Assembly: GCF_964275005.1 (NCBI RefSeq)
Contig: NC_092704.1
Span: 8,990,371-9,054,370 of the forward strand
Reading direction: 5' to 3'
Source: Diadema setosum
Lineage: Eukaryota; Echinodermata; Echinoidea; Diadematoida; Diadematidae
DNA length: 64,000 nt
Part shown: positions 1,078-59,409 of the stretch, in pieces
Numbering within the stretch: the stretch's first letter is position 1
Layout of the letters: each line of letters begins with the position of its first letter
Program-made: the position numbers and the translations under genes
The notes under the pieces: generated by a model
Databases searched by the model: none
The model's input: the letters and a program-made list of their open reading frames with translations, nothing else
What the model was told of the DNA's origin: nothing

Positions 1078-1780
1078 CAGTGAGAGGCATGTTGGTGATA
1101 GTGACGATACGTTCAGCAAATGATTTGCTTTGCTTTTGTCTTATTAGATTTCGAAATCTTTTTGTTTCAACCTTATTCCCCTTTGTCTTCTTTTGAAATT
1201 TTCTTCCAGAAATTCATGGATATCAACCCGTTGCATTTTTTACGGTGATGGCGTTGGGACTTATAATTCCTGTTTCCATCCTGGTCCTGTTCGGCGTGAT
1301 AATCTACCTACTGAGAGAAGGTATATCACAGCTGTTTTGAAAAAGCCTTACTTCAAATTATGCAGATGATCCTTTTACAAGTAACCGGACGTGCCCAAAA
1401 GAATTTGACCTATATAGTACAATGTACAATAAATCACCATTATCTTCATCACCTAACTCGAATATTTATAATGCTGTAATCGATTGATGATTATCACAAA
1501 CAATGAGAATATATAATTATGTAAGCAAAACAAGATCAAGAGGACAAAAACATCAAACATTAGTATGGTGATAACATGTACACACATCCACTCACATACA
1601 CTCAAACAAAACGCATACGATGCACACACGAACTGGAATATAACGGTAATCTGTATTTTGTGTTATTGATGGCTATAGAAGAAGTATTTTCTCCTCCTCC
1701 GTATGCCACCCTTCCCTCTCCCTCTCTTTTACACCGTCATCACTATGAGCCATGCATGACGTATAGAAACAATTAAAAGT
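1078..1780 (+). repeat. segmental duplicate of 51042-51744 carrying a transmembrane exon
   Basis: This stretch aligns along its whole length with 51042-51744, with scattered substitutions and small indels. Similarity starts abruptly at the LINE junction (1077/1078) and ends abruptly near 1780, just before the next LINE. It contains the last part of an intron, the 111-nt exon at 1210-1320 and several hundred bases downstream. It shows that two paralogous copies of the receptor gene lie in the same orientation about 50 kb apart. Confidence 0.9.
1210..1320 (+). CDS. gene 1 transmembrane exon (TNFR-like paralog)
   Basis: The exon is preceded by a pyrimidine-rich acceptor ending TTCTTCCAG and can be followed by a donor GTATAT at 1321. 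It is 111 nt, phase 1 at both ends. It encodes a short juxtamembrane piece (EIHGYQPVAFF), a hydrophobic helix of about 23 residues (VMALGLIIPVSILVLFGVII) and the stop-transfer residues YLLRE. If the donor is ignored, the frame reads only six further residues (GISQLF) and stops at 1338-1340, giving a tailless form. The paralogous exon at 51174-51284 keeps the same borders, donor and read-through stop. The 5' exons of this gene would be left of the window. The join to the microexons from 12066 onward is inferred from matching phase and order. Confidence 0.7.
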
Positions 1781-4700
1781 AGTAGGCCTCCGTCGGTCAG
1801 TGTTGACCATGGGTAATGCGCTCTAGGAGTTGACAAGTTTTGGTGATAATTCTTCCACTGGTGCCACAGCATCGGCTGTGGCTCACAAGTCCAATTCGCG
1901 AATGGCAGTCTCTACCACATCTGTGACAAGTGTGGGTAGTCGCAGGTTTTTCTCCGCGTGCTCGTGCTTTCCGTCTGGCTCTCTTTTCATCTGCAAGGCT
2001 CAGGATCCTCGCTTCACCTGCTTTGAGTTGCCTCTGAAGCGTACTGCGCCATCTGTTGCGGTCTGCTGATACGTCCTCCCAACCGTTGGTATCAATGTCC
2101 AGGGCTTTCAGGTCATGCTTGCAAACATCCTTCTACCTCAACTGGGGGGGGGGGGGGGGGCAATAGATATTTTTCCAGAGGCGAGCTCACCGCACATGCC
2201 CGAGCCAACGCAACCTGTGTTTTCTTATCAGCGTGTACATGGTGGGGAGGCCAGCTCGCTCAAGGACCTTGGCATTTGACACTTTGTCGATGCAGTTTAT
2301 GCCGAGGATGAGCCGCATGCTGCGGAGATGGAAGCTATTCAGCTTCTGCTCATGTTTGGCATAGCAGTAGTCCACGCTTACTGATAATACATGCATTGTA
2401 CACTGCCATCTTTGTTGTTATCGTTAGCTTGGGATTCTTCCAGACTCGTGTGTGAGTTAGTCGGCCAAGTGTAGTCACTGCCTTCCCAATGCGACAGTTG
2501 ATTTCAGCATCGAGGGATAGATTTTCGCTGATTGTAGAACCAAGGAAGGTGAACTTGGGGACAACATCCAGCTTATAGCTGTCAATAGTGATGACAGGTG
2601 GAGTGTCAACATCTTGGCCCAAAACATTGGTCTTTTTCAAGCTTATGGTGACACCGAAGTCTTATTGCAAGCTTTAGAGAGTCTGTCCATGAGACACTGG
2701 AGACCCTGCTCACTGTGTGATGTAACTGCTGCGTCCGATCGTCAGTAAATAGTAGGTCTCTGATGAGAACTACGCGTATCTAAGTCTTCGCTCTCAGTCT
2801 TACAAGGTTGAACAGTCTACCATCTGATCTGGTGTGTAGGTATACCCTTTCATTTTAGTTCCCAAAGGCATTCTTCATAGTACTATGGAGAGGAAGATGC
2901 TGAAGATGGTGGGCGCAAGGACATAGCCTTGTTTCACACCACTCTTGACATCAAAGACTCGGAAATGTTGCCCTCATACTGTACAGTTGTGCTCATGTCG
3001 TCATGTAAATACCTAATTATTTTGTGTAGTTTCGGAGGACATCCCATTTTCAGCAGGATGTTGAAGAGCCCTAATTCCCTGCTCACCTGGTCAAATGCTT
3101 TAGTCAGGTCAACGAAGGTGACATACAAGGACTTTTGCTGTTCTCTGCATTTTCCTGCAGGAGGTTGAGGGAGGGAGAAGATCATGTCCACTGTCGAGCG
3201 TTCTGCACGGAAGCCACATTAGGACTCTGTGTAGACGCGCTCTGCTAGCTTCTGCAGGCGCATGAGCACGACACGGGCAAAGAGTTTGCCGACAACACTC
3301 AGGAGGGAGATACCTCTGTAGTTGTTGCAGTCACTTTTGTCATCCTTGTTCTTGTACAGGGGGGCAATCTTGGCATCTCTCATGTCTTGTGGTAGGGTTC
3401 CCTCTCTCCAACATTGGCAGAGGATGTCAAGAGGGGGCAGAAGAAGGGTATTTTTGCAGCACTTGATCAGGTCTGGCGGGATGCCATTATTGCCAGGTGC
3501 CTTGCCACAAGTTAAACTGTCGACAGCCTTGCAGAGCTCCTCCTGTGTTGGATCTACATCAAGTTCCTCCTTTACAGGCAGAGGTACAATAGAGTCAAGG
3601 ACGGAATAGACAACAACATTTTCTTTGGAGTACAGCTCTGATTAAGTGCTCAACCCGTCTCTCCATCTGTTTTCCTTTGTCAGTAATTACTTCCCCACTA
3701 GAAGTTTTGAGGGGGCTGTCTTGGTCTGTGTTGGGCCTAGCGCACACTTGATTCGCTCATACATCCTTTTGATGTTGCCTGTGGCAGCTGCGGTCTGGAT
3801 GGCATTACTGAGCTGCTGCCAATATTCGTTAGCACATCGTCTTGCTGTCTGCTGCACTTTGCCCCTGGTAGCTCTGAGTGCTTGAAGAGATTTCTCGTTT
3901 GGTGAGCGCTTGTATTCAGTGAGGACAGCACGCTTTGCATCGATGATGGGCATCATCACATTTGACTTGGCTTCAAACCAGTCGCAGTTCTTGGAGGTCT
4001 TCCTTCCGAATGAATGAAGAGCTGTTTTCTGAATGGTCTCCAGAAGGTGGTCCCACTTCTCAGAAGCCGAGTTTCGCTGTTTGTCTGCAAACAATGCATC
4101 CACGAGTGACTTGGCAAACCCCTCAACTTTATCCGGACACTGCATCTTTGTGGTGTCAATTCTCGGCTTCCCCGCTGTCTTTGTTCTGTGGAACTTCTTC
4201 GGGTGAAGTCTGAACTTGCTGCACACCAGTGAGTGGTCGGTGTCGCAGTCTGCACTGTGGTATGAGTGAGAAGCACAGTCTTGAGGCTTGTTCGTCTGAC
4301 AATGACCAGATCCAGTTGATGCCAGTGCTTGGAGCGTGGGTGTCTCCATGACACTCTGTTCTGTGGCTTAGTCTGAAAGTAGGAGTTGGTTACGCAGAGG
4401 CCGTGGAAGGAGCAGAGTTCTAGCAGGCGCTACCCGTTCTCGTTGATCTTACCCACACCGAAGTGCCCTAGGCAGGATGGCTAAGAGTCGTGGTCAGCAC
4501 CCACTCTGGCGTTAAAGTCACCAAGAAGGACGAGGTGTTCATTGTCTGGAATGACTGGGCCATTAGAGGTTTGGAGTCGGAGAGTCAGAAGTCGTTCACT
4601 ACCCTTGTCACCTGGCTCAACCATACTCAGCAAGGAGTTCCTGACTGCAAATCCCACTATCGTGTTCTTTGCGCTCCTCTGTGCTCTTTCCTTGCCAGGA

Positions 4701-7700
4701 GAAGGTGTAGTCTCTCTCTTTTAACATGCCTGATCCAAGTAGACGTGTTTCTTGTAGGGCAGCAATATCAACCTGTAGTCTCAGTAGTTCATCATTAATG
4801 ATGGCAGTCTTTCTTGCATCGTTGATGCCTTGAAGGTCAAAATCATGTCGTGTCCAGGGGTCATTGTTCGAACGTTCCATGATCCAAGTTTGAGAGCTAG
4901 TCTCTTGGTTTTCTTTTCTTCCTGTTTTTGCTGGGTGCAATAGTATAGTCCGAATTATATGCTTTTTCAAGCACTTAAAAGGGGTCTTTTGAGGGTGATT
5001 TAAATGTAATAAATTTTGATAAATTTTGGCGGGAGAGCGCAGCGAGCGAGCCGAAAATTTTTGTATTTCAGCTTACAAAACGAGAGAGTGAGCTGAACTT
5101 TGTATATTTCCACGTCATCATTACGTTTTGTTCTTATCTTGTTTGATTTGTGTTTTTTGCGCCCCTCCCCCCCCCCCCACTATTTTCGAAACCGTTGGCG
5201 ACCTCTTTTGATCCAATCGGCGATCGCTTCAGAACGAAAGAAATTGCAGCTGCTGCTTCGTGTAACATTTTGCCTGCTGAATAATAAGTGACATGTGTGA
5301 AGTGTGAACACAATAGACATTGTCATTTTGTCCTCGTCATCATCACGTTTTGTTCTTATCGTCTTTTTTTACAAATTTAAGCGAGCGAGCGCAGTGAGCG
5401 AGCCGAAAATTGTTGTATTTCTGCTTACAAAACATGGAATTCTTGTCATGCTTGTCATTATCGCAAAGAGTAGGGTGCCAACCGTGCCAACCCGGTGAAA
5501 TGGTCCCCCTTTTTTCCTCCCATACAAGAAAACGGGCGAATGATACCGATCCCTGGTGTGTGGCGCGCCATTTGCCCAATTTTATCGCCGAAAAAATCAA
5601 TTATCTTTTTATTCAGTCGATAAACTAAGTTGGGTTTTTTTTTCAAGAGAAACTGTGTTTATCGAGCGATAAGCTTTATTTATCAATTGAAAAACGCAGT
5701 TTATGGAGCGATAAACTAGGTTTATCGGGATAAACTAGGTTTTTCGTTCGATAAACTTAGTTTATCTACTCACAAACTGAGTTTTCGGCGATAAACACAG
5801 TTTCTCTCTCGGAAAAAAAACAAAGAAAAGCTTAGTTTATCGTTCATCTGAGTTGTTCAAGCCTTGTCAGTAGCTGACGCTTTGAGCTTATGGCGTAGCC
5901 AGAGCCTTGAGCGTAGCCTTAACTAGAAGGCTCTGAGTGTAGCCACTGATCACGTACCAGCTCCAGGCGTAATGGGACACTGATAGTTGCCTTGCGGCAA
6001 GTTGTCAACTTAACCATTCAACGGTCATTTTGCTCGCTGTTTTGCCATGGCCACGGAAGGTACAAGTGGGCAGCCAAGGGAGGTGTTATATCCAGAGCTT
6101 AGAGTTTTGTTGGGTTTTTTTTTTTCCACCTGGGATGTTTACCGTCGCGACCACTAGCTGGTAATGGGTACTACTGTAGTCGGTAATACTGTACAGTAGT
6201 TTATTAGGGGGGAAAAGTGTTTATCGAGCGAAAAACTAGGTTTATCGAGAAACTCTGTTTATCAATAAAAGAACTCTGTTTAGCCAGTGAAAGTCTATGT
6301 TATTCGTGATAAACTCGATAAGCAGCGTTTCTCTCCAAAAACGTAGTTTATCGACTGATAAACATTTTTTTTTTTTTGCGATAAACTCAGTTTATCGGAA
6401 TTAGTGGGCAAATGGCGTTCCATACTCGTGGTTCGCCCCGGATGACTAGCAATAGTCAGCAAACGGTATTCTAATAATATGTTAACCGATATTTTATTTC
6501 GTAAGTCTCGACATCGAGACTACGCATTACTGCGTATGAGAATATAGGAGATCCCGCGCGCGTGCACGTGTTCAATTCGTGCGAAGCCGTGTTCTGGAAA
6601 GGAGCAGTTACGATACTGCTCCAGCGTGATCGGGAATTTCTACCCCTTTTTGCCGTTTCTCCGAGATTCTATTTCCGAATTGCTGAAGTATCGTTACGGA
6701 AAATACAAGAACTATGGAGAAGCAATCTCCACCCTCTAATTCACCGCTTGCTGCCTCGCGTTTCCAACCCAAAATGGCTCCTACGCAGCGGGATGCCAGC
6801 AGTTGCAGTGGAGCTGCATCTGCCGTAACGGACAGTACATGTACTAAGAAAAGTACGAAACCACAGGCTGACCGCGTAGCGGCGGCTGGAGGTAGTAGCG
6901 GGAAGAAAAAACCGAGCAGGGTGAAACCTTGCTCAGAGTCAGACGCTGGATCGCGATCTTCTACTGTCGGTACGAATTCGGATTTGGCAGAATTCACCGG
7001 GAGGCTAAATAAACTCGAAAATCTTCTCTCCCGAGTCGTTGATGCTCTGCCCGGAGCATCGATGCACTACACGCAAGACGACTATGATATGGCAACGGTG
7101 ATAACACGTGGGGGATTCAACCGTGATTTGAGCGGGCTCGCGGAGTCACGCGATGAACATCTGCCTACCGAGCGCGGTAGTATGCAGGGCGACGATCCAG
7201 ATCAGGGCAAGGTGCCTGCCTTCGCAGCAAAATTCGCGGTGCATTCAGAGATCGGGCAGGCTATCGACGAAGAGCTAGCAAACTCCGTGACTTATTTAAT
7301 GACCAACAACCTGGAAGAGAAAACGCTCGAGGATACAGCTCACAAATAACCTTGCCCGGCAAACTGCCAGTTGATCGACTCGCCGCGTGTAAACCAGACA
7401 ATCTGGGACAACCTCAGCACAACTACTCGCACTCGCGATGCTAGGATCCAGAAAGTGCAAAGGTCATTAACTCGCGGTGTTAATGCGTTTCTCCTCACAC
7501 TCGACCCAGAGATAACTGAGGCCCAGCAAGATGCGCTTGCTCTCCTGTGCAACGCTAATTACGAACTGAATGCACTCCGAAAAGAACTGATTAGACCAGA
7601 TCTGAACAGTAAGTTCACACACCTGTGCAAGGCCACTCACCCCGTGACCAAGTACCTCTTTGGAAATGACTTGGGAGAGAAGTCAGAGAGCTTCAGGACC

Positions 7701-10700: not shown

Positions 10701-11482
10701 CTACGAGAGCTGCCGCAGCCTCGGCTGCAGAAAGCCTGCATGTCCCTGTTGCCGAGATATTATCCAGAGCGGGATGGACTTCTGAGAAAGCATTCAGAAA
10801 GTTCTACAGAAAGCCACTTCTTGACACAGGGAAATTCGCGAAAGCTCTACTGGACCAATAGCGGATCCAGGACTAAAGAAAAGGTGAATGTGAAAGGTGT
10901 GTATTCCCTGGTATTGACTTATGAATGTTGACTACTAAACATTCCCTTATGCCTATTCGGGCTTGTCATGTAGACTAAGTGCCCACAGAGCTTTAAAATC
11001 TCCTATATTCTCATACGCAGTAATGCGTAGTCTCGATGTCGAGACTTACGAAATAAAATAGGAAGATTAAATGAGAACTTACCTGTTCGAAATTTGATCT
11101 TTATTTTATGAGTAATGCGAAGAGGAGAGACTACGCACCCACCTCTCCCACCCTAAATGGCGCCTTACTCAATATATAATGGTAAGCTCTCAACCTTATC
11201 TTGGGTTCTGGAATCTGTGGACACTTAGTCACTTTAAAAATTGAACACGTGCACGCGCGCGGGATCTCCTATATTCTCATACGCAGTAATGCGTAGTCTC
11301 TCCTCTTCGCCTTACTCAAAAAATAAAGATCAAATTTCGAACAGGTAAGTTCTCATTTAATCTTCCTATTATTTGTAATTCTTATTTGATTTTGTAACCT
11401 TTGTATTTGATGCAGGGCTCCCTTGCAAAGTAGGCCATTGGGGCTCTGAACGGGACAACTCTGTTTTTAAAGAAAACATGAA

Positions 11483-11521
<39 letters not shown>

Positions 11522-17500: not shown

Positions 17501-20500
17501 GTTGATTTGTTGATTTGTATTGATTTTGAAATGCAGAAATAAAAACTGAACTGAACTGAACTGAACTGAAAAACTTATTAGACGAAAAGTTTATTTGGCG
17601 AAAAACTAGGTTTATCGAGAAACTCTGTTTAGCAATAAAAAACTCTGTTTAGCCAGTAAAAATCTATGTTATTCTTGATAAACTCGATAAGCAGCGTTTC
17701 TCTCCAAAAACGTAGTTTATCGACTGATAATTTTTTTTTTTTTTGCGATAAACTCAGTTTATCGGAATTAGTGGGCAAATGGCGTTCCATACTCGTGGTT
17801 CGCCTCGGATGACTAGCAATAGTCAGCAAACGGTATTTTAATTATGTTACCCGATATTATTTGTAATTCTTATTTGATTTTGTAACCTTTGTATTTGATG
17901 CAGGGCTCCCTTGCAAAGTAGGCCATTGGGGCTCTGAACGGGATAACTCTGTTTTTAAAGAAAACATGAATAAATAAATAAATAAATAAATAAACTGTGT
18001 CATACCCTTGAATGAACGTATTCCTGAAAGAGTGGTTTAATATGATTGTGATCGCGTCTGTGCTCTTGTAATGATTAGAAACACCTAATTCTATAGAGCT
18101 ATTCAAATGTTTCATATCTGAAGTGGATATGTGCTTGTCCGTACTATGTTAGAATACGATACAAATGGAAGAATGAGAGCACAATATAACATTTTGTAAG
18201 ACGTTATTCGGCAATATATAAGGCCTATCAGACACTCCGGCCCTGACACTTGGAATTCCCTTCCCATCGAAATTAAAAACATGACCACTATGTATTCATT
18301 TAAGGAGGCTGTAAAACTTCACCTCCTTAAGCAGTATTCCCCAGGATAACATTCTGATTCCTTTATTGTATGTACGTGGTACATGATGCATGTATGTGTG
18401 CATACATATATCGATGTATTTATCTATCCATATTATGAATATGAATATATATGTATGTATAGGATAGGTACATCATGTATATTATATGAGCATGTATATG
18501 TATTAAAAACTATGTGTCGATTTATACTGTTTGTCATAAATGACATGTACATAATCATATCTGATGTAACGGAATTAAGCAGAAATAAATCAAATCAAAT
18601 CCAAAAAAAAAAAAAAAAATCAAATCAAATATGAAATAAAGATAGGGGGTATGACTTGCGTACAGACACGACAGAAAAAACTAAGAAGGAAAGGATAGAA
18701 GTAACTTTCTTAATGCTAAATTATATCGTTAAACATTATGTTGAAAATAACATTTTCAGAATTTTGAGTTTCTTTCAACTTAGACTTTACCCGATGAAAG
18801 CCGTCTGTAAGATCTGTGTTCAAATTTTATTACCCGTCCATTCTAATGCGACCTCATTTACTGTGTGATGCTTAACAAAATGTCAGTTGGACAGCTGTAG
18901 GGCTATAAGTCACCTCCTTTCTCTTCTTTTCACAGACAAAACCCAGGGCAGAGATGAAGGTAAACATAATGTAATTTAGTACACAATATTTACATTTTAT
19001 TTTGATCAAGATGGCAGCCTTGATTTAATTTGACTTGAAATGATTTAATTATTTTCCGTGTTATCATTGTTCATGAACACACATTGTTGGTAGCATTATA
19101 CAGCTGCATATGTATACAATATTGCGTAGAAAACAATTTTGTCTCCATTAGATTTATAATGTGAGAAACAAAAGTGTACAATTGATATAATATAGATAAT
19201 ACAGAAAAGCTACAATAATATGAGGGCAGCTTGATTTGCTTGCAACTCTTATACATAATACAAAGTGAATATTGAAAGAAGGAGTGACTTAGGATGGAAT
19301 TAACTTTATGCTAAACTATACAAATCTTACAAATTATACAACGACACGTTGAAAAAAAGAGAGAATTGTGAGTTTCTTTTAACTAGACATTACCCGATGA
19401 AAGCTGTCTGTAAGATGATTATATTTTATGAAAGGCAAGATGGCAGCGCTGTTTTGTTTTCATTTGATATGACTGGTTTCTGCGTTATCATCTTGATTCA
19501 AAATCTTGATTTGCCAAATATTGTACTCTCCCGAACGTTCTTCTTCATTGAAACTGTGAAAAGGTGAAATTATAAAACCGGATTGAATGCTTGAGCAGTA
19601 AAATTCCGCACTGTCTTTTGGATCGTGTGATTTTCCAGATTTATTTTGCACTAATTATTTGGCGTGCTTGTGCTGTTAAGCTTGGCTCGGGAACTGATGT
19701 AGCTTTATACATACTGTGTACCCTATTCATTATCGAAAATTCAAAGAGGATTACTACCACTCGTTAAAGTTGACCAGTCAAGTTACCTTGTAGTGAAAAT
19801 GAAAGTATTGAGTTGTACAAATATCTTGGTATAAAGTTAAGAAATTTTTTTCTTTTCCATCATGGCGTCGCCAACGTCCGTAGTGGATGCGGGTTCCTTG
19901 ACGGAGCAAATCAAGGAAATGAAGGAAGACATCTTGAGGGACTTGAGGGAATTCACCAAGTTACACGGTAAGTTGACTGAACAGGGACAACGATTGAAGG
20001 ACATGGAGCTGAACAACAAGTCGCAATCCAAAGAGATTGCATGTATATCTACTTCTGTGGCTGATCAGAAGGCGACAATCACCAATCGGCGTCTATCAGC
20101 AGGTGATGTGGAACAGTATTCACGCAGGATATTGCAGTGCAGTGCACTCACGTTATAACGAACCGGATTAAAACAAAATTGTTGTAACAACGAAATAAAA
20201 GCACAGGCCCCAAAATTATCGGGTAACTTTATGTCACACGACCGACACTCATGAGTCATAGAGCCCACGCGTTACATAGCCCACAAGTCATACAGCCCAT
20301 ACACGAGTCATACAGCTCTCAAGTCATACAACCCACTAGTTATACAGTCCACGAGTTCGACATGAAGTAAAATAAGAGATGAGTTATACAGCCCATGAGT
20401 TCGACACCACGCACAAAAAGCTCACAAGATCGACACTACGCAAAGAAAGCCCACGAGACAGAAACTATATACGCTTAAGAACTGACAAGACCGACATTAC

Positions 20501-23500
20501 CCAAACAATGCTCATGAGACCGACACAACGCAAAGAATGCTCACGAGACCGACATGATGAACAACGCCACCTAGACCAATTAATAGTACATTGTATAGGA
20601 TGTCCAGATAATGGTATAAAGAAGATAGAAATGGAAAGGGAGAGTTGTTGGGGTGTTACCCGTCAGTTGCCCTCCCTCACCCCCTGAAATGTTCAAGATA
20701 TTTAATTGTGCTTACGTGTGTGAGTGTTTGTGACAAAATAACAAACTTCAGGAAAGTGTGCATCAGATCTTTTTTACATTAATTGCAAAATGCCAAAACG
20801 CCCTCGTTTCCCTTTCCGCAAAACACATAATGTACACTTATACTAAGAAAAACAATATGATGTGTACATTCAGATCAACCAACTAAAAAAATATTAAGTT
20901 GTGAAAAATGAAGTTTACAAGGAAATATTTAACAAAATGGTCAATGTTGTATAGTGCTGCACACCTGCTTTACATGACCTGAACGGGGCCTCATCTGCAA
21001 AGTTGTTGATTAAGTATAAATTCACAGAAAATAACGTAATCGTCTGTAAAGGTAGCGTTAAGGATTCGGAATAAGAAGATGCATCCATGAAAAGAGATAT
21101 TATATATTATTATATATTATAATTATATATTATGGGCTGTTTTTACCTAGTGTCGGTCTCATGGGCTTTATTTGCCCAATGTCGACCTCTTGGGCTGTAG
21201 GACCCGTGGGCTGTATGACTCATGGGTGTCGGTCTTGTGGGATGACCCCGTATAAGTCACATCCTTTCTCTATTTCGCACAGCCGAGGGGGAAGGAAAGC
21301 AGGACGGCAACAATCAAGGTAATCATGTTCTGCGAAAGTTGTACATTTCAAACATTGTTGAAGCCTTTATTTGGTTTGATTTGATTTGATTTGATTTACA
21401 TTGGTTACTGCATTAACAGTGTTTATGTATAGCCTACACATATCATTGGTAGCTTTATTATAATTATACATAAGTTGCGTAGGAAATAAAATAAGTCTCC
21501 ATTGGATTTACAATGTGTAACAAAATGTTTAATATTGAGAAGCACATACAATGAATTTTAGACAGTGGATCCTGCTTGAGTACAGCCTAATTTTTACTCC
21601 AGCCATTATTCATAGTACATAAAGACAATAAACATATAGGAGTGACTTGCAAAACGATAGAATAGAAAAAAAAAATGGGAAGGAACGGATGGAAGTATAG
21701 CTTTCTGGTAAACCGTACAAATTATACAACTTCATGATAAAAATAACATTTTAAAAATTGTGATCCTCTTTTGATAACTAGACTTTATCCGCTAAACGCC
21801 GTCTGTAAAATATCAGTTCACGTTTCAGTAGCTGTTCATTATCATGCGAACTCATAAACTGCATAAGCTAAAGAAAATATCAGTTGGGCAGCTGTATAAG
21901 TCGGGTGCACGTCACGAGACCGACACCCACGAGTCATACAGCCTACAAGTTATACAGCCCACGAGTCATACAGCCCATGAGTTCGACGCTGTTAAAGCAA
22001 ACAAGGCTTACTAGACTGACACATTAAACCCCGTATTACATCTGTCGAACTCGTGGGCTGTTTTTACCTAGTGTCGGTCTCATGGGCTTTATTTGCCCAA
22101 TGTCGACCTCTTGGGCTGTAGGACCCGTGGGCTGTATGACTCATGTCTTGTGGGATGACCCCGTATAAGTCACATCCTTTCTCTATTTCGCACAGCCGAG
22201 GGGGAAGGAAAGCAGGACGGCAACAATCAAGGTAATCATGTTCTGCGAAAGTTGTACATTTCAAACATGGTTGAAGCCTTTATTTGGTTTGATTTGATTT
22301 GATTTGATTTACATTGGTTACTCCATGAACAGTGTTTATGTATAGCCTACACATATCATTGGTAGCTTTATTATAATTATACATAAGTTGCGTAGGAAAT
22401 AAAATAAGTCTCCATTGGATTTACAATGTGTAACAAAATGTTTAATATTGAGAAGCACATACAATGAATTTTAGACAGTGGATCCTGCTTGAGTACAGCC
22501 TAATTTTTACTCCAGCCATTATTCATAGTACATAAAGACAATAAACATATAGGAGTGACTTGCAAAACGATAGAATAGAAAAAAAAATGGGAAGGAACGG
22601 ATGGAAGTATAGCTTTCTGGTAAACCGTACAAATTATACAACTTCATGATAAAAATAACATTTTAAAAATTGTGATCCTCTTTTAATAACTAGACTTTAT
22701 CCGCTAAACGCCGTCTGTAAAATATCAGTTCACGTTTCAGTAGCTGTTCATTATCATGCGAACTCATAAACTGCATAAGCTAAAGAAAATATCAGTTGGG
22801 CAGCTGTATAAGTCGGGTGCACGTCACGAGACCGACACCCACGAGTCATACAGCCTACAAGTTATACAGCCCACGAGTCATACAGCCCATGAGTTCGACG
22901 CTGTTAAAGCAAACAAGGCTTACTAGACTGACACATTAAACCCCGTATTACATCTGTCGAACTCGTGGGCTGTTTTTACCTAGTGTCGGTCTCATGGGCT
23001 TTATTTGCCCAATGTCGACCTCTTGGGCTGTAGGACCCGTGGGCTGTATGACTCATGTCTTGTGGGATGACCCCGTATAAGTCACATCCTTTCTCTATTT
23101 CGCACAGCCGAGGGGGAAGGAAAGCAGGACGGCAACAATCAAGGTAATCATGTTCTGCGAAAGTTGTACATTTCAAACATTGTTGAAGCCTTTATTTGGT
23201 TTGATTTGATTTGATTTGATTTACATTGGTTACTGCATTAACAGTGTTTATGTATAGCCTACACATATCATTGGTAGCTTTATTATAATTATACATAAGT
23301 TGCGTAGGAAATAAAATAAGTCTCCATTGGATTTACAATGTGTAACAAAATGTTTAATATTGAGAAGCACATACAATGAATTTTAGACAGTGGATCCTGC
23401 TTGAGTACAGCCTAATTTTTACTCCAGCCATTATTCATAGTACATAAAGACAATAAACATATAGGAGTGACTTGCAAAACGATAAAATAGAAAAAAAAAT

Positions 23501-26500
23501 GGGAAGGAACAGATGGAAGTATAGCTTTCTGGTAAACCGTACAAATTATACAACTTCATGATAAAAATAACATTTTAAAAATTGTGATCCTCTTTTGATA
23601 ACTAGACTTTATCCGCTAAACGCCGTCTGTAAAATATCAGTTCACGTTTCAGTAGCTGTTCATTATCATGCGAACTCATAAACTGCATAAGCTAAAGAAA
23701 ATATCAGTTGGGCAGCTGTATAAGTCGGGTGCACGTCACGAGACCGACACCCACGAGTCATACAGCCTACAAGTTATACAGCCCACGAGTCATACAGCCC
23801 ATGAGTTCGACGCTGTTAAAGCAAACAAGGCTTACTAGACTGACACATTAAACCCCGTATTACATCTGTCGAACTCGTGGGCTGTTTTTACCTAGTGTCG
23901 GTCTCATGGGCTTTATTTGCCCAATGTCGACCTCTTGGGCTGTAGGACCCGTGGGCTGTATGACTCATGTCTTGTGGGATGACCCCGTATAAGTCACATC
24001 CTTTCTCTATTTCGCACAGCCGAGGGGGAAGGAAAGCAGGACGGCAACAATCAAGGTAATCATGTTCTGCGAAAGTTGTACATTTCAAACATTGTTGAAG
24101 CCTTTATTTGGTTTGATTTGATTTGATTTGATTTACATTGGTTACTGCATTAACAGTGTTTATGTATAGCCTACACATATCATTGGTAGCTTTATTATAA
24201 TTATACATAAGTTGCGTAGGAAATAAAATAAGTCTCCATTGGATTTACAATGTGTAACAAAATGTTTAATATTGAGAAGCACATACAATGAATTTTAGAC
24301 AGTGGATCCTGCTTGAGTACAGCCTAATTTTTACTCCAGCCATTATTCATAGTACATAAAGACAATAAACATATAGGAGTGACTTGCAAAACGATAGAAT
24401 AGAAAAAAAAATGGGAAGGAACGGATGGAAGTATAGCTTTCTGGTAAACCGTACAAATTATACAACTTCATGATAAAAATAACATTTTAAAAATTGTGAT
24501 CCTCTTTTGATAACTAGACTTTATCCGCTAAACGCCGTCTGTAAAATATCAGTTCACGTTTCAGTAGCTGTTCATTATCATGCGAACTCATAAACTGCAT
24601 AAGCTAAAGAAAATATCAGTTGGGCAGCTGTATAAGTCGGGTGCACGTCACGAGACCGACACCCACGAGTCATACAGCCTACAAGTTATACAGCCCACGA
24701 GTCATACAGCCCATGAGTTCGACGCTGTTAAAGCAAACAAGGCTTACTAGACTGACACATTAAACCCCGTATTACATCTGTCGAACTCGTGGGCTGTTTT
24801 TACCTAGTGTCGGTCTCATGGGCTTTATTTGCCCAATGTCGACCTCTTGGGCTGTAGGACCCGTGGGCTGTATGACTCATGTCTTGTGGGATGACCCCGT
24901 ATAAGTCACATCCTTTCTCTATTTCGCACAGCCGAGGGGGAAGGAAAGCAGGACGGCAACAATCAAGGTAATCATGTTCTGCGAAAGTTGTACATTTCAA
25001 ACATGGTTGAAGCCTTTATTTGGTTTGATTTGATTTGATTTGATTTACATTGGTTACTGCATTAACAGTGTTTATGTATAGCCTACACATATCATTGGTA
25101 GCTTTATTATAATTATACATAAGTTGCGTAGGAAATAAAATAAGTCTCCATTGGATTTACAATGTGTAACAAAATGTTTAATATTGAGAAGCACATACAA
25201 TGAATTTTAGACAGTGGATCCTGCTTGAGTACAGCCTAATTTTTACTCCAGCCATTATTCATAGTACATAGAGACAATAAACATATAGGAGTGACTTGCA
25301 AAACGATAGAATAGAAAAAAAAATGGGAAGGAACGGATGGAAGTATAGCTTTCTGGTAAACCGTACAAATTATACAACGTCATGATAAAAATAACATTTT
25401 AAAAATTGTGATCCTCTTTTGATAACTAGACTTTATCCGCTAAACGCCGTCTGTAAAATATCAGTTCACGTTTCAGTAGCTGTTCATTATCATGCGAACT
25501 CATAAACTGCATAAGCTAAAGAAAATATCAGTTGGGCAGCTGTATAAGTCGGGTGCACGTCACGAGACCGACACCCACGAGTCATACAGCCTACAAGTTA
25601 TACAGCCCACGAGTCATACAGCCCATGAGTTCGACGCTGTTAAAGCAAACAAGGCTTACTAGACTGACACATTAAACCCCGTATTACATCTGTCGAACTC
25701 GTGGGCTGTTTTTACCTAGTGTCGGTCTCATGGGCTTTATTTGCCAAATGTCGACCTCTTGGGCTGTAGGACCCGTGGGCTGTATGACTCATGGGTGTCG
25801 GTCTTGTGGGATGACCCCGTATAAGTCACATCCTTTCTCTATTTCGCACAGCCGAGGGGGAAGGAAAGCAGGACGGCAACAATCAAGGTTGTACATTTCA
25901 AACATGGTTGAAGCCTTTATTTGGTTTGATTTGATTTGATTTGATTTACATTGGTTACTGCATTAACAGTGTTTATGTATAGCCTACACATATCATTGGT
26001 AGCTTTATTGTAATTATACATAAGTTGCGTAGGAAATAAAATAAGTCTCCATTGGATTTACAATGTGTAACAAAATGTTTAATATTGAGAAGCACATACA
26101 ATGAATTTTAGACAGTGGATCCTGTTTGAGTACAGCCTAATTTTTACTCCAGCCATTATTCATAGTACATAGAGACAATAAACATATAGGAGTGACTTGC
26201 AAAACGATAGAATAGAAAAAAAATGGGAAGGAACGGATGGAAGTATAGCTTTCTGGTAAACCGTACAAATTATACAACGTCATGTTGAAATAACATTTTA
26301 AAAATTGTGATCCTCTTTTAATAACTAGAATTTATCCGCTAAACGCCGTCTGTAAAATATCAGTTCACATTTCAGTAGCTGTCCATTATCGTGCGATCTG
26401 CATAAGCTAAAGAAAATATCAGTTGGGCAGCTGTATAAGTCACACCTCCATTCTCTATTCCTCACAGCCGAGGGGGGACGAAAGTAGGACGGCAACAATC

Positions 26501-28238
26501 ACGGTAATCATGTCCTACGAAAGAAGTAGGACATTTCAAATGTGATGGAAGCCTTGACTTGACTTGATTTTTTGGTTACTGCATTAACATTGTTTATGTA
26601 TAGTCTACGTGTCATAATTATTATTGGTAGCTTTATTATAATTATATATAAGTTGCGTAGGAAATAAAATAAGTCTCCATTGGATGTACAATGTGTAACA
26701 AAGTGCATAATATTGAGAAGCACATACAATGAGTTTTAGGCAGGGGATACTCTTTGAGTATAGCCTGATTTTTACTCCGGCCCTTATTCATAAAACAATA
26801 ACGACAATAAACACTAGGAGTGACTTGCAAAACGATAGGATATGAATAAAAATTGAAGGAACGGATGGAATATCTTTCTCGTAAACCGTACAAATTATGC
26901 AACGTCATGTGGAAAATTACAATTTAAGATCTGTGATCCTTTTTTCCCGATAAAAGCTGTCTGAAAATGTCAGTTCACATTTCAGTAGCCGTTCGTTCTT
27001 GTACGATCTCATGAACTGTATAAGCTAAAGAAAATATCAGTTGGGCAGCTGTGTAAGTCACCTGTTTTCTCTATTCCTCACAGTCAAAGGGGAAGGGGAG
27101 CAGAACGTCAATGGTCCAGGTAATCATATTCTACGAAAGAAGTACATTTTAAACATGATGGAAGCCTTGGTTTCGTGTGATTTGATTTGATTTGATTTGA
27201 TTTGACTTGATTTGATTTGATTTGATTTTGTAATTGTATTAACATTGTTTATGTTAAGGCTACTGCAAACATTATTGGAAGCTTTATTATAATCATACAT
27301 AAGTTGCCTAGAAAGTAAGATTGACTCCATTGGAATTACAATGCGTAACAAAGTGTATGATATTGAGAAGCATATACAATGAATACTGTAGACAGTGGAT
27401 ACTGTTAGAGTACAGCTTGAGTTTTACTCCGTCCCTTATTCATAATACACAAGGACAATAAACACTAGGAGTGACTTAAAACGATAGGATATGAATAAAA
27501 ATTGAAGGAACGGATGGAAGTAGCTTTCTGGTAAACCATACAAAAGTATGCAACGTCATGTGGAAAATAGCTTTTTCAGAACTAGGATCCTCTTTTAACT
27601 TAATTTACCTGATAAAAACCGTCTGTATAATGTCAGTTCAAATTTCAGTAGCCGTTCGTTCTTGTGCGATCTCATGAACTGTATTATAAGCTAAAGAAAA
27701 TATCAGTTTGGCAGCTGTATAAGTCATCTCCATCCTTTATTCCTCACAGCCGAGGGGGGACCAAAGCAGGAAGGCAACAACCAAGGTAATCAAAAACGAA
27801 AGAAGTACATTTTAAATGAATGGAAGCCTTGATTTTGTTTGATATGGTTAGAATTTTTTTTTTTTTTTGTTACTGCAATTTACATTGTTCATGTATAACC
27901 TACCCCATTATTTGTAGCTTTATCATGGTTATAGAGAATTTGCGTAAAAAAGTAAGATTTTTTTCCAATGGATTTACAACGTGTAACAAAAGTGTATAAT
28001 TTTGTGAAGCACAGTTAGCACTCTGTATTTACTCCCATCAAGGTTTTAGTAAAGAGGAAAGGTCACCTTCTTTTTCTATACAGATAATGAAGAAAAGGCT
28101 AAAAAGAACCCGATTGAAGACCACAAAGAGGCAGCCGAGAAACTAAATGCGGCACAAGATAAAGAGGACGTAACTGACGAACATACAAAATTGATCACTC
28201 ATGTTGATGGCACAAATTCCTCCAGTGTCCACACTTAA
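1210..28238 (+). CDS. predicted gene 1: TNFR-like receptor, transmembrane exon plus repeat-exon tail
   Basis: Proposed exons are 1210-1320 (transmembrane), 12066-12089, 18936-18959, 21283, 22196, 23108, 24020, 24932, 25852, 27084 and 27750 (36 nt each) and 28084-28238. The stop-bearing 26468 exon would be skipped. Every junction is phase 1. The product would have a single transmembrane helix and a cytosolic tail of two 8-residue and eight 12-residue repeats, then a charged C-terminus. The ectodomain is outside the window; its nature is inferred from gene 2. The weakest link is the first intron, about 10.7 kb and full of LINE and DIRS sequence, joining the transmembrane exon to the microexons. 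Confidence 0.5.
1790..4980 (-). mobile_element. degenerate minus-strand LINE, nearly full length
   Basis: Minus-strand fragments in the expected order form one decayed APE-endonuclease LINE. The endonuclease N-terminus (ETRLLGSG) is at 4970-4617. The endonuclease end and linker (SADCDTDHSLV) is at 4349-3687. The RT palm is at 3191-2934 (VTFVDLTKAFD). The RT thumb region is at 2640-2350 (FTFLGSTIS), and the C-terminal block is at 2396-2187 (RLRWLGHVR). A Cys/His-containing tail lies near 2060-1830. Frameshifts and stops break it throughout, and a run of 18 G at about 2143-2160 interrupts the C-terminal part. It lies in the presumed first tail intron of gene 1. The clade is not assigned. The tandem duplication breakpoint at 3931 lies inside this LINE. 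Confidence 0.85.
5020..5480. repeat. GAGCGAGC / GTCATCATYACGTTTTGTTC repeat field
   Basis: Two related modules occur here, around 5035-5135 and 5330-5440. Each has an AGCGAGCGAGCCGAAAATT core, a TTGTATTTC..GCTTACAAAAC segment and a CATCATYACGTTTTGTTCTTATC segment. The same field recurs at 14480-14900 as part of the tandem duplication. No coding potential is visible. Confidence 0.7.
5590..6420. repeat. field of dispersed GATAAAC..GTTTATC palindromic motifs
   Basis: About twenty degenerate copies of a short palindrome built from CGATAAAC and GTTTATCG lie in two clusters (5605-5845 and 6210-6395), separated by about 360 bases of ordinary sequence. Spacing is irregular, unlike a satellite. The field is also present in the right duplicate at 15060-15285 and 17575-17765. 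Confidence 0.7.
6714..8012 (+). pseudogene. DIRS gag-like region, broken
   Basis: A frame from the Met codon at 6714 runs 211 codons, rich in Ser, Lys and Glu, to a stop at 7347-7349. The same frame resumes and stays open to 7727, with the DIRS gag-like block SPRVNQTIWDNLS followed by a basic helix region. A further frame, 7660-7965, carries an RPAWRKRF basic tail. The pieces are best read as one gag gene with an in-frame stop and a frameshift near 7680. Identity rests on position before the RT and general resemblance, since DIRS gag is poorly conserved. Confidence 0.65.
8009..9851 (+). pseudogene. DIRS reverse transcriptase and RNase H, one frameshift
   Basis: The frame from 8009 carries RT motifs in order: TRPKKNGGIRLILDLSDLN, the first Asp block SVDLQDAYYSVPI, KALPNGLSSAPRLFTKLL, and the catalytic IRYLDD at about 8608-8630. 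A frameshift near 8635 moves the reading to the frame of 8622-9851. That frame continues with the thumb (LGFLIHPHKS, LSFLGFNLD) and an RNase H domain (ELCTDASGKGWGATD, YLEMLAV, HLPGSDNIEADQMSR). A DIRS-specific extension follows (PDIDLFASRLNRQVENYVSWKP). The family and order are clear; the single shift makes this copy non-functional as written. Confidence 0.9.
9884..10931 (+). pseudogene. DIRS tyrosine recombinase, frame-broken
   Basis: The N-terminal SAM-like part (AASWRKSTKSQYNVYIKKW) lies in the frame of 9884-10066. A shift near 10040 moves to the frame of 10039-10785, which holds the catalytic Arg region LALISAQRVQSL. A second shift near 10695 restores, in another frame, the HSTR motif and AEILSRAGWTSEKAFRKFY with the presumed nucleophilic Tyr. 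The catalytic residues are therefore still encoded, but in three frames. The enzyme class integrates DIRS circles by site-specific recombination. Confidence 0.88.
11001..11140. repeat. DIRS internal complementary region
   Basis: Bases about 11005-11060 are the reverse complement of the element's left end, including the TCGATGTCGAGACTTACG block. They continue directly into the reverse complement of the right end (AGGAAGATTAAATGAGAAC..). The join gives the predicted circle junction, with a single ATT (as AAT on this strand) between the two ends. Confidence 0.88.
11371..11525. repeat. LINE 3' tail with (AATA)n microsatellite
   Basis: TTTGTATTTGATGCAGGG and GGCTCTGAACGGGACAAC are followed by an AATA-type run at about 11477-11520. 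This looks like a LINE 3' end with its simple-repeat tail on the + strand. The paralogous stretch is at 17860-17995 with a shorter run. Confidence 0.6.
12066..12089 (+). CDS. gene 1 microexon, 24 nt, phase 1-1
   Basis: A long pyrimidine tract ending TCTTCTTTTCACAG precedes it and the donor GTAAAC follows. With a G carried from the previous exon it reads DKARGRDE and leaves a G for the next exon. Flanking intron sequence (CGTCTGTAAAATCTG.., TCAGTTGGACAGCTGTAG..) is homologous to the flanks of the 36-nt microexons from 21283 on, so it belongs to the same exon family. No transcript evidence. Confidence 0.55.
12991..13227 (+). pseudogene. LINE ORF1-like fragment (coiled-coil start)
   Basis: The peptide begins MASPTSVVDA and continues as a charged helix (KLHGKLTEQGQRLKDMEL) before a frame break; its paralog at 19862-20158 extends into ADQKATITNRRLSAGDVEQYSRR. 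The EQYSRR-type motif after a coiled coil is typical of ORF1 proteins of some LINEs. It lies at the end of each copy of the tandem duplication and is truncated, so I do not call a host gene. Confidence 0.6.
13280..14431 (-). mobile_element. LINE endonuclease fragment (right duplicate)
   Basis: This is the minus-strand counterpart of 3931-4980, covering the endonuclease from its N-terminus (ETRLLGSG near 14200) to SADCDTDHSLV (near 13600). It keeps a block at 13913-14006 that is missing from the left copy, including part of the endonuclease core with LLGDFNARVGAD. It is still broken by stops and frameshifts. Confidence 0.85.
15518..16648. mobile_element. DNA transposon/MITE with 24-bp terminal inverted repeats
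   Basis: The ends read CAGGCGCGGTGGAGCACCCC.. and, reversed, CAGGCGCAGTGGAGCACCCC.., one mismatch in 24. It is flanked by GGCA on both sides (15514-15517, 16649-16652). The empty paralogous site in the left duplicate (about 6070) has a single GGCA. The interior has no recognisable transposase. It is 1131 bp and the superfamily is unassigned. Confidence 0.88.
16821..17570 (+). mobile_element. 5'-truncated LINE insertion with (CTGAA)n tail
   Basis: A frame from 16801-17109 (real start of the insert at 16821) encodes the C-terminal end of a CR1/L2-like RT: HSYPTRQSSDYHL, then DIWNSLPPNLKQCTSLNIFK and a terminal KRELKNTL. It is followed by a 3' UTR and ends in a CTGAA repeat at about 17546-17570. 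The matching site in the left duplicate (about 6230) is empty. Confidence 0.85.
18221..18630 (+). mobile_element. 5'-truncated LINE 3' end with AAATC/poly(A) tail
   Basis: A short open stretch encodes an RT C-terminus (DTWNSLPIEIKNMTTMYSFK ending KQYSPG and a stop near 18346). A 3' UTR with ATGTATGTAT repeats follows, and a tail of AAATC repeats around a poly(A) run. The left duplicate lacks it at about 11755. Confidence 0.8.
18936..18959 (+). CDS. gene 1 microexon, 24 nt, phase 1-1 (second copy)
   Basis: The acceptor (TCTTCTTTTCACAG) and donor (GTAAAC) match those of 12066-12089. It reads DKTQGRDE after the carried G. Relative to the first copy there are two substitutions, both changing the amino acid, at positions 3 and 4 of the peptide. 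It was produced by the ~4.5-kb tandem duplication. Confidence 0.55.
19862..20158 (+). pseudogene. LINE ORF1-like fragment (second copy)
   Basis: This is the counterpart of 12991-13227 with an intact frame of 98 codons. It has a Met start, an acidic coiled-coil helix with EQIKEMKEDILRDLREFTK, and the motif DVEQYSRR near residue 84. It then diverges into ILQCSALTL and a stop at the duplication edge. Truncated LINE ORF1 is the best reading. Confidence 0.6.
20221..20570. repeat. left arm of a foldback-type repeat (CCCACGAGTCATACAG motifs)
   Basis: About fifteen degenerate copies of a roughly 18-bp motif, of the form CCCACGAGTCATACAG or CTCACGAGACCGACACAACG, lie head to tail. The inverted counterpart is at 21130-21250, just before the first 36-nt microexon. 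The roughly 560 bases between them (20571-21130) show nothing recognisable and end in a (TATATTATA) run. Confidence 0.7.
21283..21318 (+). CDS. gene 1 microexon 1 of the 36-nt family
   Basis: Acceptor TTTCTCTATTTCGCACAG, donor GTAATC. Phase 1-1: with the carried G it reads AEGEGKQDGNNQ. This frame is open, charged and hydrophilic, consistent with a cytosolic repeat. The next four copies are identical in exon sequence and lie about 912 bp apart. Confidence 0.6.
21903..22163. mobile_element. TU-like foldback MITE in the microexon intron (first of five)
   Basis: Arms made of CCCACGAGTCATACAGCC-type repeats face each other (21903-22010 against 22045-22163). The 8-bp direct repeat TATAAGTC flanks it (21895-21902 and 22164-22171). 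Diverged units at 26430 and 27050 have the single uninterrupted site. Copies inside the array are 22815-23075, 23727-23987, 24639-24899 and 25551-25819. Each ends about 30 bases upstream of a microexon start. Confidence 0.85.
22196..22231 (+). CDS. gene 1 microexon 2 of the 36-nt family
   Basis: Identical in sequence, acceptor and donor to 21283-21318; encodes AEGEGKQDGNNQ, phase 1-1. Confidence 0.6.
23108..23143 (+). CDS. gene 1 microexon 3 of the 36-nt family
   Basis: Identical exon, same acceptor and GTAATC donor; encodes AEGEGKQDGNNQ, phase 1-1. Confidence 0.6.
24020..24055 (+). CDS. gene 1 microexon 4 of the 36-nt family
   Basis: Identical exon with intact splice sites; encodes AEGEGKQDGNNQ, phase 1-1. 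Confidence 0.6.
24932..24967 (+). CDS. gene 1 microexon 5 of the 36-nt family
   Basis: Identical exon with intact splice sites; encodes AEGEGKQDGNNQ, phase 1-1. Confidence 0.6.
25852..25887 (+). CDS. gene 1 microexon 6 of the 36-nt family, altered donor
   Basis: The exon is identical to the other array copies, but a deletion of about 20 bases right after it replaces the donor GTAATC with GTTGTA. The new donor is much weaker by consensus, so this copy may be skipped; skipping keeps the frame because the exon is symmetric. Confidence 0.5.
26468..26503 (+). pseudogene. gene 1 36-nt microexon with in-frame stop
   Basis: Splice sites are intact (CTATTCCTCACAG; donor GTAATC) and the length is still 36 nt. 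The fifth codon after the first complete one is CGA AAG TAG, giving AEGGRK and then a stop. Inclusion would truncate the receptor before the terminal exon; skipping preserves phase 1. The unit also lacks the foldback insertion, so it is one of the older, diverged units. Confidence 0.6.
27084..27119 (+). CDS. gene 1 diverged 36-nt microexon
   Basis: Acceptor TTCTCTATTCCTCACAG, donor GTAATC, phase 1-1. Reads VKGEGEQNVNGP after the carried G. Despite about a third of bases differing from the array copies, the length and the open frame are kept, which supports past coding function. Confidence 0.6.
27750..27785 (+). CDS. gene 1 diverged 36-nt microexon with PKQE
   Basis: Acceptor TTTATTCCTCACAG, donor GTAATC, phase 1-1. 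Reads AEGGPKQEGNNQ. The PKQE stretch fits the loose TRAF-binding consensus (P/S/A/T)x(Q/E)E known from TNF-receptor tails, but a four-residue match can arise by chance. Confidence 0.6.
28084..28238 (+). CDS. gene 1 terminal coding exon
   Basis: A pyrimidine-rich acceptor (CTTCTTTTTCTATACAG) is followed by a phase-1 frame open for 50 full codons to TAA at 28236-28238. With the carried G it begins DNEEKAKKNPIEDHKE, is rich in Asp, Glu, Lys and Ala, probably helical, and ends GTNSSSVHT. It enters in the same phase as every microexon donor upstream. No known signalling domain is visible, and no death domain. The 3' UTR and polyadenylation site are not clear. Confidence 0.6.
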
Positions 28239-44695: not shown

Positions 44696-44779
44696 ATGGC
44701 AGACTTGAGTAAGCCTCCTATCTACAGTCTACTTCTGACATGTGTTTTCCTTGTGTGCAGGGGCAAGCCAATAAACCTG
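44696..44779 (+). CDS. gene 2 exon 1: signal peptide
   Basis: Twenty-eight codons from ATG encode a short polar start (MADLSKPP), a hydrophobic core (IYSLLLTCVFLVC) and a likely cleavage region (RGKPINL). It ends at a consensus donor, CTG|GTGAGT, in phase 0. It is too short to stand out as an ORF; it was chosen because the signal peptide, the strong donor and the phase all fit the next exons. Confidence 0.7.
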
Positions 44780-50340: not shown

Positions 50341-50382
<42 letters not shown>

Positions 50383-59200: not shown

Positions 59201-59409
59201 ACGAACACCACCCTTATACAAGACATTAATTTTGCATTATCTATCAAAATACATTTCTTATTTTCTGTAAAAATCCACAGGAGGGCGGCGAAGTGAGACG
59301 CATGGTAGAAGCAATTCACCGGCACCGAATAACACTGGTTCGGCAACGAATTTGAATTCCGGTGAGTATTACAGATCAATGACGAGTGTTATCATGCTAT
59401 CTCTCTCTC

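Follow-up and report, generated by a model that had tools for sequence, protein, structure and literature searches.

A Candidate Cytosolic Tail of Tandem Microexons in a TNFR-like Receptor Gene of Diadema setosum

The DNA analyzed here is a stretch of 64,000 nucleotides from the sea urchin Diadema setosum (the window; coordinates are counted from its first letter and features lie on the plus strand unless stated otherwise). It contains what is, with some reserve, probably a TNFR-type receptor gene whose cytosolic tail would be encoded by tandemly duplicated, frame-neutral microexons and a terminal exon. The blocks with their splice signals, their common descent, the layers of duplication and a neighboring receptor gene can be recognized in the DNA itself, and the balance of this evidence favors assigning the microexons to the receptor as its tail.

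Microexon Blocks and Their Splice Sites

An earlier note on this DNA had listed two 24-nt and nine 36-nt microexons followed by a terminal coding exon, and the coordinates and the arrangement of AG, block and GT were recovered. The 24-nt microexons are m1 (12066-12089; DKARGRDE; acceptor rank 3 of 7092) and m2 (18936-18959; DKTQGRDE), the latter within a segment duplicated from the m1 region. Five 36-nt microexons, r1 to r5 (21283-21318, 22196-22231, 23108-23143, 24020-24055 and 24932-24967), encode AEGEGKQDGNNQ. Block r6 (25852-25887) has the same exon letters as its sister units, but in those the donor is followed by bases that are missing here; what remains is a degraded site, AAG/gttgta. 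Block r7 (26468-26503) reads AEGGRK, TAG, DGNNH in phase 1 and is either decayed or stop-carrying, whereas r8 (27084-27119) and r9 (27750-27785) encode VKGEGEQNVNGP and AEGGPKQEGNNQ, respectively. The terminal coding exon (28084-28238; acceptor rank 27 of 7092) has 51 codons and ends with a TAA at 28236-28238. Two good splice sites combined with an open phase 1 frame are found in 9 of the 11 blocks, the 24-nt pair included, and thus in only seven of the nine 36-nt blocks; the earlier count of nine good 36-nt exons was too high on account of r6 and r7.

Splice sites were scored on both strands with approximate matrices, which gave 7092 AG sites and 7565 donors. The microexon acceptors take ranks 3-43 and the donors of ten blocks ranks 98-403, the r6 donor being placed at 2761. 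When the weakest block sites were taken as thresholds (a post hoc choice, made with the r6 donor excluded), 15 acceptor-donor pairs 12-60 nt apart occurred on the plus strand and none on the minus strand. Ten of the 15 are microexon blocks, all open except r7, and these ten are the only pairs with lengths that are multiples of 3. In 60 order-1 Markov sequences, a control based on resampled dinucleotides instead of an exact shuffle, the mean was 1.08 pairs and the maximum 4, with 7.5 acceptors compared to 33 observed. A chance origin of the blocks was rejected on these grounds, with the qualification that, because related blocks were scored against post hoc thresholds, about five diverged lineages (the 24-nt pair, r1-r6, r7, r8 and r9), and not eleven independent cases, stand behind these statistics. 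On balance, the exons are judged likely to be real.

The reading phase is less tightly fixed. An open frame is weak evidence of phase 1, since none of the three phases is closed in blocks r1-r6, r8 or r9; for the same reason, the earlier remark that the diverged blocks r8 and r9 keep both exon length and open frame is correct as to the 36 nt and the openness but carries little weight for the latter. Of the three phases, only phase 2 is incompatible with the 24-nt blocks and the last exon. In phase 0 every block is open, r7 included, and the end is 20 codons long, so that the blocks alone do not establish phase 1. Furthermore, at least 51 open phase 1 codons follow 119 of the 888 CAG sites in the window, which counts against the tail reading. 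The purine content of the microexons is 72-78%, in the top 1.1-4.1% of windows of equal length; the microexons may therefore hold their own splicing enhancers, which would also account for the peptide bias.

Receptor Genes and Their Family

Only the transmembrane exon of gene 1 lies within the window (1210-1320; 111 nt, phase 1 at both ends, encoding EIHGYQPVAFFTVMALGLIIPVSILVLFGVIIYLLRE), its 5' exons and ectodomain being expected to the left. Its donor, AAG/gtatat, is in phase 1 at 1320, and the exon is 79% identical over 34 residues to the D. antillarum protein P0001. A retroelement-like frame matching the endonuclease family PF03372 lies beside it on the minus strand, at 1-1119.

The paralogous gene 2 (44696-51284) is intact through its membrane exon and has five exons (44696-44779, 47417-47467, 48929-49071, 49871-50259 and the transmembrane exon 51174-51284, with a phase 1 donor). 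Its product is 82% identical to P0001 over 255 residues and has a hydrophobic start, MADLSKPPIYSLLLTCVFLVC, which looks signal-peptide-like by eye, and, also by eye, one membrane helix (EIHGY...LIYPMRE). The region of the main exon (49869-50336) matches TNFR_c6 at E=3e-6 with 28 bits, just below the cutoff of 29.4, and a PDB search gave a match to UL144 (E 0.0064). The PDB also yielded SAKe designs, whose scores add up weak repeated matches, and 3i7t (E 0.71); neither was considered further. The acceptor of exon 2 is doubled (TTAGCAG, 47410-47420), by which one glutamine could be gained or dropped.

All 14 matches at E<=0.001 in a family-profile protein search, which covers only proteins having short words in common with the query, come from D. 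antillarum or D. setosum. Each of the 14 matches PF00020 (TNFR_c6) at E up to 0.1, P0001 with 30 bits and above the cutoff. Together with the identity of gene 2 to P0001, this bears out the earlier description of the receptor as TNFR-like. A 20-residue stretch with mean hydropathy >1.6 past residue 90 is present in 12 of the 14 relatives, the exceptions being P0006 and P0011. The AlphaFold2 model of P0001 has a mean pLDDT of 43.9, with the ectodomain <50, which makes that part of the model unreliable, and values >70 only in blocks 231-260. No death-domain family appears in the list of 11 families obtained for the 14 relatives (E 0.1), and the last exon of the window (28084-28238) has no death domain match at E 1.

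The 3' End of Gene 1

The sequence of P0001 departs from that of the membrane exon after 37 residues, which is the position of the phase 1 donor of gene 1, and an exon boundary at the same place in both would explain this. The next residues of P0001, ASAVAHK, are compatible with a phase 1 junction to a homologue of its ending that sits 0.55 kb past the gene 1 membrane exon (1870-1937, with 13 of 15 residues alike at 1892-1936). Reading in phase 1 from the AG before 1870 gives ASAVAHK, as in P0001; the remainder of the ending is in a different frame in the window, entered via the AG before 1890. A second retroelement-like frame runs antisense to this homologue on the minus strand, at about 1800-4970. 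The ending of P0001 is antisense to a frame that looks LINE-like by eye, as does the one at about 1800-4970 in the window. A Pfam search with the frame 3687-4349 (minus strand) gave no match.

Another candidate 3' end is obtained by reading through the donor, which adds GISQLF and a stop (1321-1340) and is followed by an AATAAA at 1428. The same GISQLF and stop are found in gene 2, with the equivalent AATAAA at 51392. Gene 1 might thus end early, either as REGISQLF with polyadenylation near 1428 or with a P0001-like exon near 1870-1937, and the microexons would be dead or rarely used. We regard this as rather unlikely, though several observations are in its favor: the read-through stop and AATAAA are common to both genes, while downstream of the last exon the nearest AATAAA is 0.8 kb away, at 29039; P0001 itself has an ending that differs from the microexon tail, which counts against the tail reading, and its homologue is close by; and r6 and r7 are decayed, while the recognizable units of gene 2, described below, lack an acceptor. 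However, the two genes are about 92% alike here (45 of 604 sites differ over 1080-1700), and a common GISQLF is therefore expected by descent. By segment, 13 of 111 sites differ in the membrane exon, 4 of 130 in the preceding intron, 27 of 343 compared sites past the read-through stop and 20 of 93, with many gaps, in the next stretch. Moreover, the splice sites of m1, m2, r1-r5, r8, r9 and the last exon are still good, and a long-dead tail would lose them, while the ending of P0001 is divided between two frames in the window.

Units Downstream of Gene 2 and the Assignment of the Microexons

A remnant of the intron of a microexon unit (52134-52431) begins 0.85 kb past the transmembrane exon of gene 2. 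Its part 52267-52431 is 67% alike over 169 nt (5e-13 in a lax BLAST search), and 52134-52175 reaches only E 0.0096 in a profile search. Degenerate microexon units follow at 54921-55058, 58087-58224 and 61251-61391 (nhmmer E 2e-4, 2e-4 and 4e-6, respectively), all of which have lost the acceptor AG, a point counted against the tail reading. All matches of the exon unit at E<0.001 in the window are 3' of a receptor membrane exon, that of gene 1 or of gene 2, and share its strand, and the lax BLAST search was concordant on this placement after matches of an inserted repeat element had been set aside. The change of sequence in P0001 at the gene 1 donor, together with the remnants after the gene 2 membrane exon, suggests that the microexons are probably the receptor's.

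The region downstream of gene 2 also contains a candidate 81-nt phase 1 exon (56120-56200), which recurs at 59281-59361 and 62444-62524; its three copies are part of a 3.16-kb tandem array. It reads GGRRSETHGR[TS]NSPAPNNTGSATNLNS, and in the first copy the acceptor ranks 298 of 7092 and the donor 7 of 7565. These exons possibly form a second, separate repeat-built tail. The array also repeats the frame at 53431-53796, which gives a weak match to reverse transcriptase, under the cutoff.

Alternatively, the microexons could be part of another gene starting between 1340 and 21283, for example one for a small micro-exon protein, either secreted or intracellular, with phase 0 or 1 as its reading phase. 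The openness of all microexon blocks in phase 0, r7 too, fits such a gene, as does the long first intron full of mobile elements that the receptor would need: the gap from 1320 to 12066 would be an intron of 10.7 kb, which counts against the tail reading. Nevertheless, this alternative is quite improbable, as the units lie 3' of the membrane exon in both receptor genes, no alternative first exon has been noted so far and protein searches found no annotated protein with the tail. With a 281-aa query that included the tail, 3 proteins were matched at E<=1; the matches span 53-58% of the query and leave the tail out. With the 115-aa tail as query, none of 11 candidates was at E<=1. That the tail has no annotated relative in the protein searches made was also counted against the tail reading. 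Gene predictors often miss exons of 24-36 nt, and such a tail could for this reason be absent from annotations. Within the first intron, the interval 8009-10785 matches the reverse transcriptase family PF00078 (2e-11) and, below the cutoff, the tyrosine-recombinase family PF00589 (0.0023); this element is presumably DIRS-like.

Duplication History and Sequence Change

All the blocks and their introns are linked by BLAST and by a profile, and these alignments reveal common descent in three layers of duplication. The oldest separates the 24-nt type from the 36-nt type, with about 61% likeness over the downstream intron; because its donor is placed further upstream, the 24-nt type stops 12 nt short of the other in the alignment. 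The 24-nt pair reflects duplication of a segment several kb long (3931-6072 and 11367-13281 versus 13280-15517 and 17855-20165). The units of r7-r9 start 616 and 666 nt apart and are 77-81% like those of the array. The youngest layer is the 912-nt array itself, in which the units of r1-r5 differ at 0-6 of 912 compared bases. This divergence is lower than the heterozygosity of D. setosum, given as 2.11% (PMC11066563), so that copy number may well vary between animals.

A 260-nt insertion (21903-22162), which lies between two copies of GTATAAGTC, ends 33 nt before the r2 exon. It has counterparts before r2-r6 and only its 3' part before r1, and it is absent before r7-r9, m1 and m2; this repeat element was inserted right before the array microexons and amplified with the array. 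Pieces similar to the element with its GTATAAGTC flanks occur near 20233-20554, 45000-45650 and 48396-48479.

The exons of r2, r7, r8 and r9 were compared with their flanks, r6 with its degraded donor being left outside. No exon has an indel and the donor hexamer GTAATC is invariant, although the flanks differ by 4-29%, depending on pair and stretch; this was counted in favor of the tail reading. In the three pairs without r8 the exons differ by 11-14%, inside the flanking range, whereas in the three pairs with r8 they differ by 31-44%, more than any flank. No purifying selection was detected in these four exons, a point on the other side of the balance, and the ratio of nonsynonymous to synonymous changes is near neutral; between r2 and r8, for example, 8 changes are nonsynonymous and 3 synonymous, with 28.7 of 36 sites nonsynonymous. 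Of 29 comparable exon sites, 11 carry a change found only in r8; for flanking sites the figure is 11 of 172 (p=2e-5, the best of four lineages tested, the other three giving p 0.17-0.71). This excess could have its source in exchange with another unit. The pattern resembles the fast evolution of schistosome micro-exon genes, for which high dN/dS is reported (PMC4350168), but it is also expected from an unconstrained flexible tail or from exchange between units.

The neutral kind of the exon changes and the 260-nt element borne by the array copies would fit blocks that are never-spliced intronic repeats with exon-like ends, the 912-nt array being a satellite-like expansion driven by the inserted repeat, but this is very improbable, as the insert-free blocks (the 24-nt pair, r8 and r9) still have acceptors and donors of high rank and remain 24 or 36 nt long.

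The Proposed Tail

In the favored reading, in which the microexons are the tail of gene 1, the receptor pre-mRNA would be joined from 1320 to 12066, 18936, the 36-nt exons and finally 28084. Since every microexon is a multiple of 3, its gain, loss or skipping would alter the tail by 8 or 12 residues with the frame intact, and the G common to the microexon junctions, together with these lengths, would permit any number to be joined. The predicted product consists of the membrane segment, a basic stretch (DKARGRDE), several 12-residue units and an end of 51 residues, the units presumably acting as a flexible, charged spacer rich in E, G, N, K, D and Q ahead of this end. Blocks r6 and r7 would be decaying or skipped, and tail length is expected to differ among isoforms; as the five array units differ by so few bases, it probably also varies between individuals. 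The most likely job of such a tail, speculatively, would be to set the reach or spacing from the membrane to an adaptor-docking sequence. The PKQE of r9 resembles what we take to be the TRAF consensus. It is a single occurrence, and PxQE arises in 4.7% of shuffles of the tail, the broad motif in 61%, which is too weak for a TRAF motif to serve as proof of function. A TRAF-like [PSAT]x[QE]E occurs in the inner tails of 4 of the 12 membrane-bearing relatives (P0007, P0009, P0010 and P0012; shuffle p=0.02).

Repeat-built tails are found among annotated members of the family. The inner tail of P0008 (NCBI, D. antillarum) has four 27-residue repeats with 18-24 of 27 residues identical, while P0003 and P0005 have a single such repeat and P0013 a related stretch; annotated members therefore do vary in the length of a repeat-built tail. 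Homology of the P0008 repeats to the 12-residue units is not supported, as 1822 of 2000 shuffles score as high, and neither is homology to the 81-nt exon of gene 2 (1173 of 2000). A wider and tentative proposal is that the inner tail is an evolvable module, with tandem arrays of small exons that originated independently from one member to another (units of 12 residues here, repeats of 27 in P0008). Taken as a whole, this proposal, which is somewhat doubtful, would further imply that tail length differs among isoforms, paralogues and probably individuals, that change is fast or diversifying (as in r8), and that the micro-exon-gene design was reached independently outside flatworms, on the signaling side of an immune-type receptor.

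Comparison with Known Systems

To our knowledge, a tail built from microexons is not known in the TNF receptor superfamily, and among the matches listed, taken by title and start of the abstract, there was no report of such a receptor tail in echinoderms. The proposed receptor shares with this superfamily the TNFR_c6 cysteine-rich repeat and a single membrane pass, gene 2 serving as stand-in. It differs in that no death-domain family was found among the 14 members (E 0.1), a domain that only some superfamily members have. Within its own family, P0008 is comparable, with one membrane pass and a tandem-repeat inner tail; its repeats are unrelated to AEGEGKQDGNNQ in length and sequence (shuffle test), and it is known from the protein alone.

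Micro-exon genes are described as appearing restricted to platyhelminths and as mostly coded by very small symmetric exons (PMC4350168). The same text gives the schistosome genes runs of such exons that can be skipped without loss of frame (PMC4350168), and here, likewise, there are many small symmetric exons, 11 blocks of 24 or 36 nt. Unlike in those genes, microexons would encode only the tail, which follows a TNFR-type receptor and is predicted to lie on the inner side of the membrane, and the coding sequence would not be mostly in microexons, to judge by gene 2, whose exons through the membrane exon measure 51-389 nt. Nor is the origin platyhelminth: all 14 family matches at E<=0.001 are from the echinoid Diadema. 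The resemblance to schistosome micro-exon genes drawn in the earlier note therefore holds for the design and not for descent, given the apparent restriction of those genes to platyhelminths (PMC4350168). A further parallel in design is schistosome VAL-6, an ordinary gene made partly of very small symmetric exons and thought to be composite (PMC4350168); it encodes a VAL protein, not a membrane receptor, and is likened by design alone.

If the tail is real, the inner part of a receptor can lengthen or shorten stepwise without damage to the frame, and the near-identical array makes tail-length polymorphism directly testable in a wild sea urchin. Diadema would then be the second lineage of animals to show a design like that of micro-exon genes.
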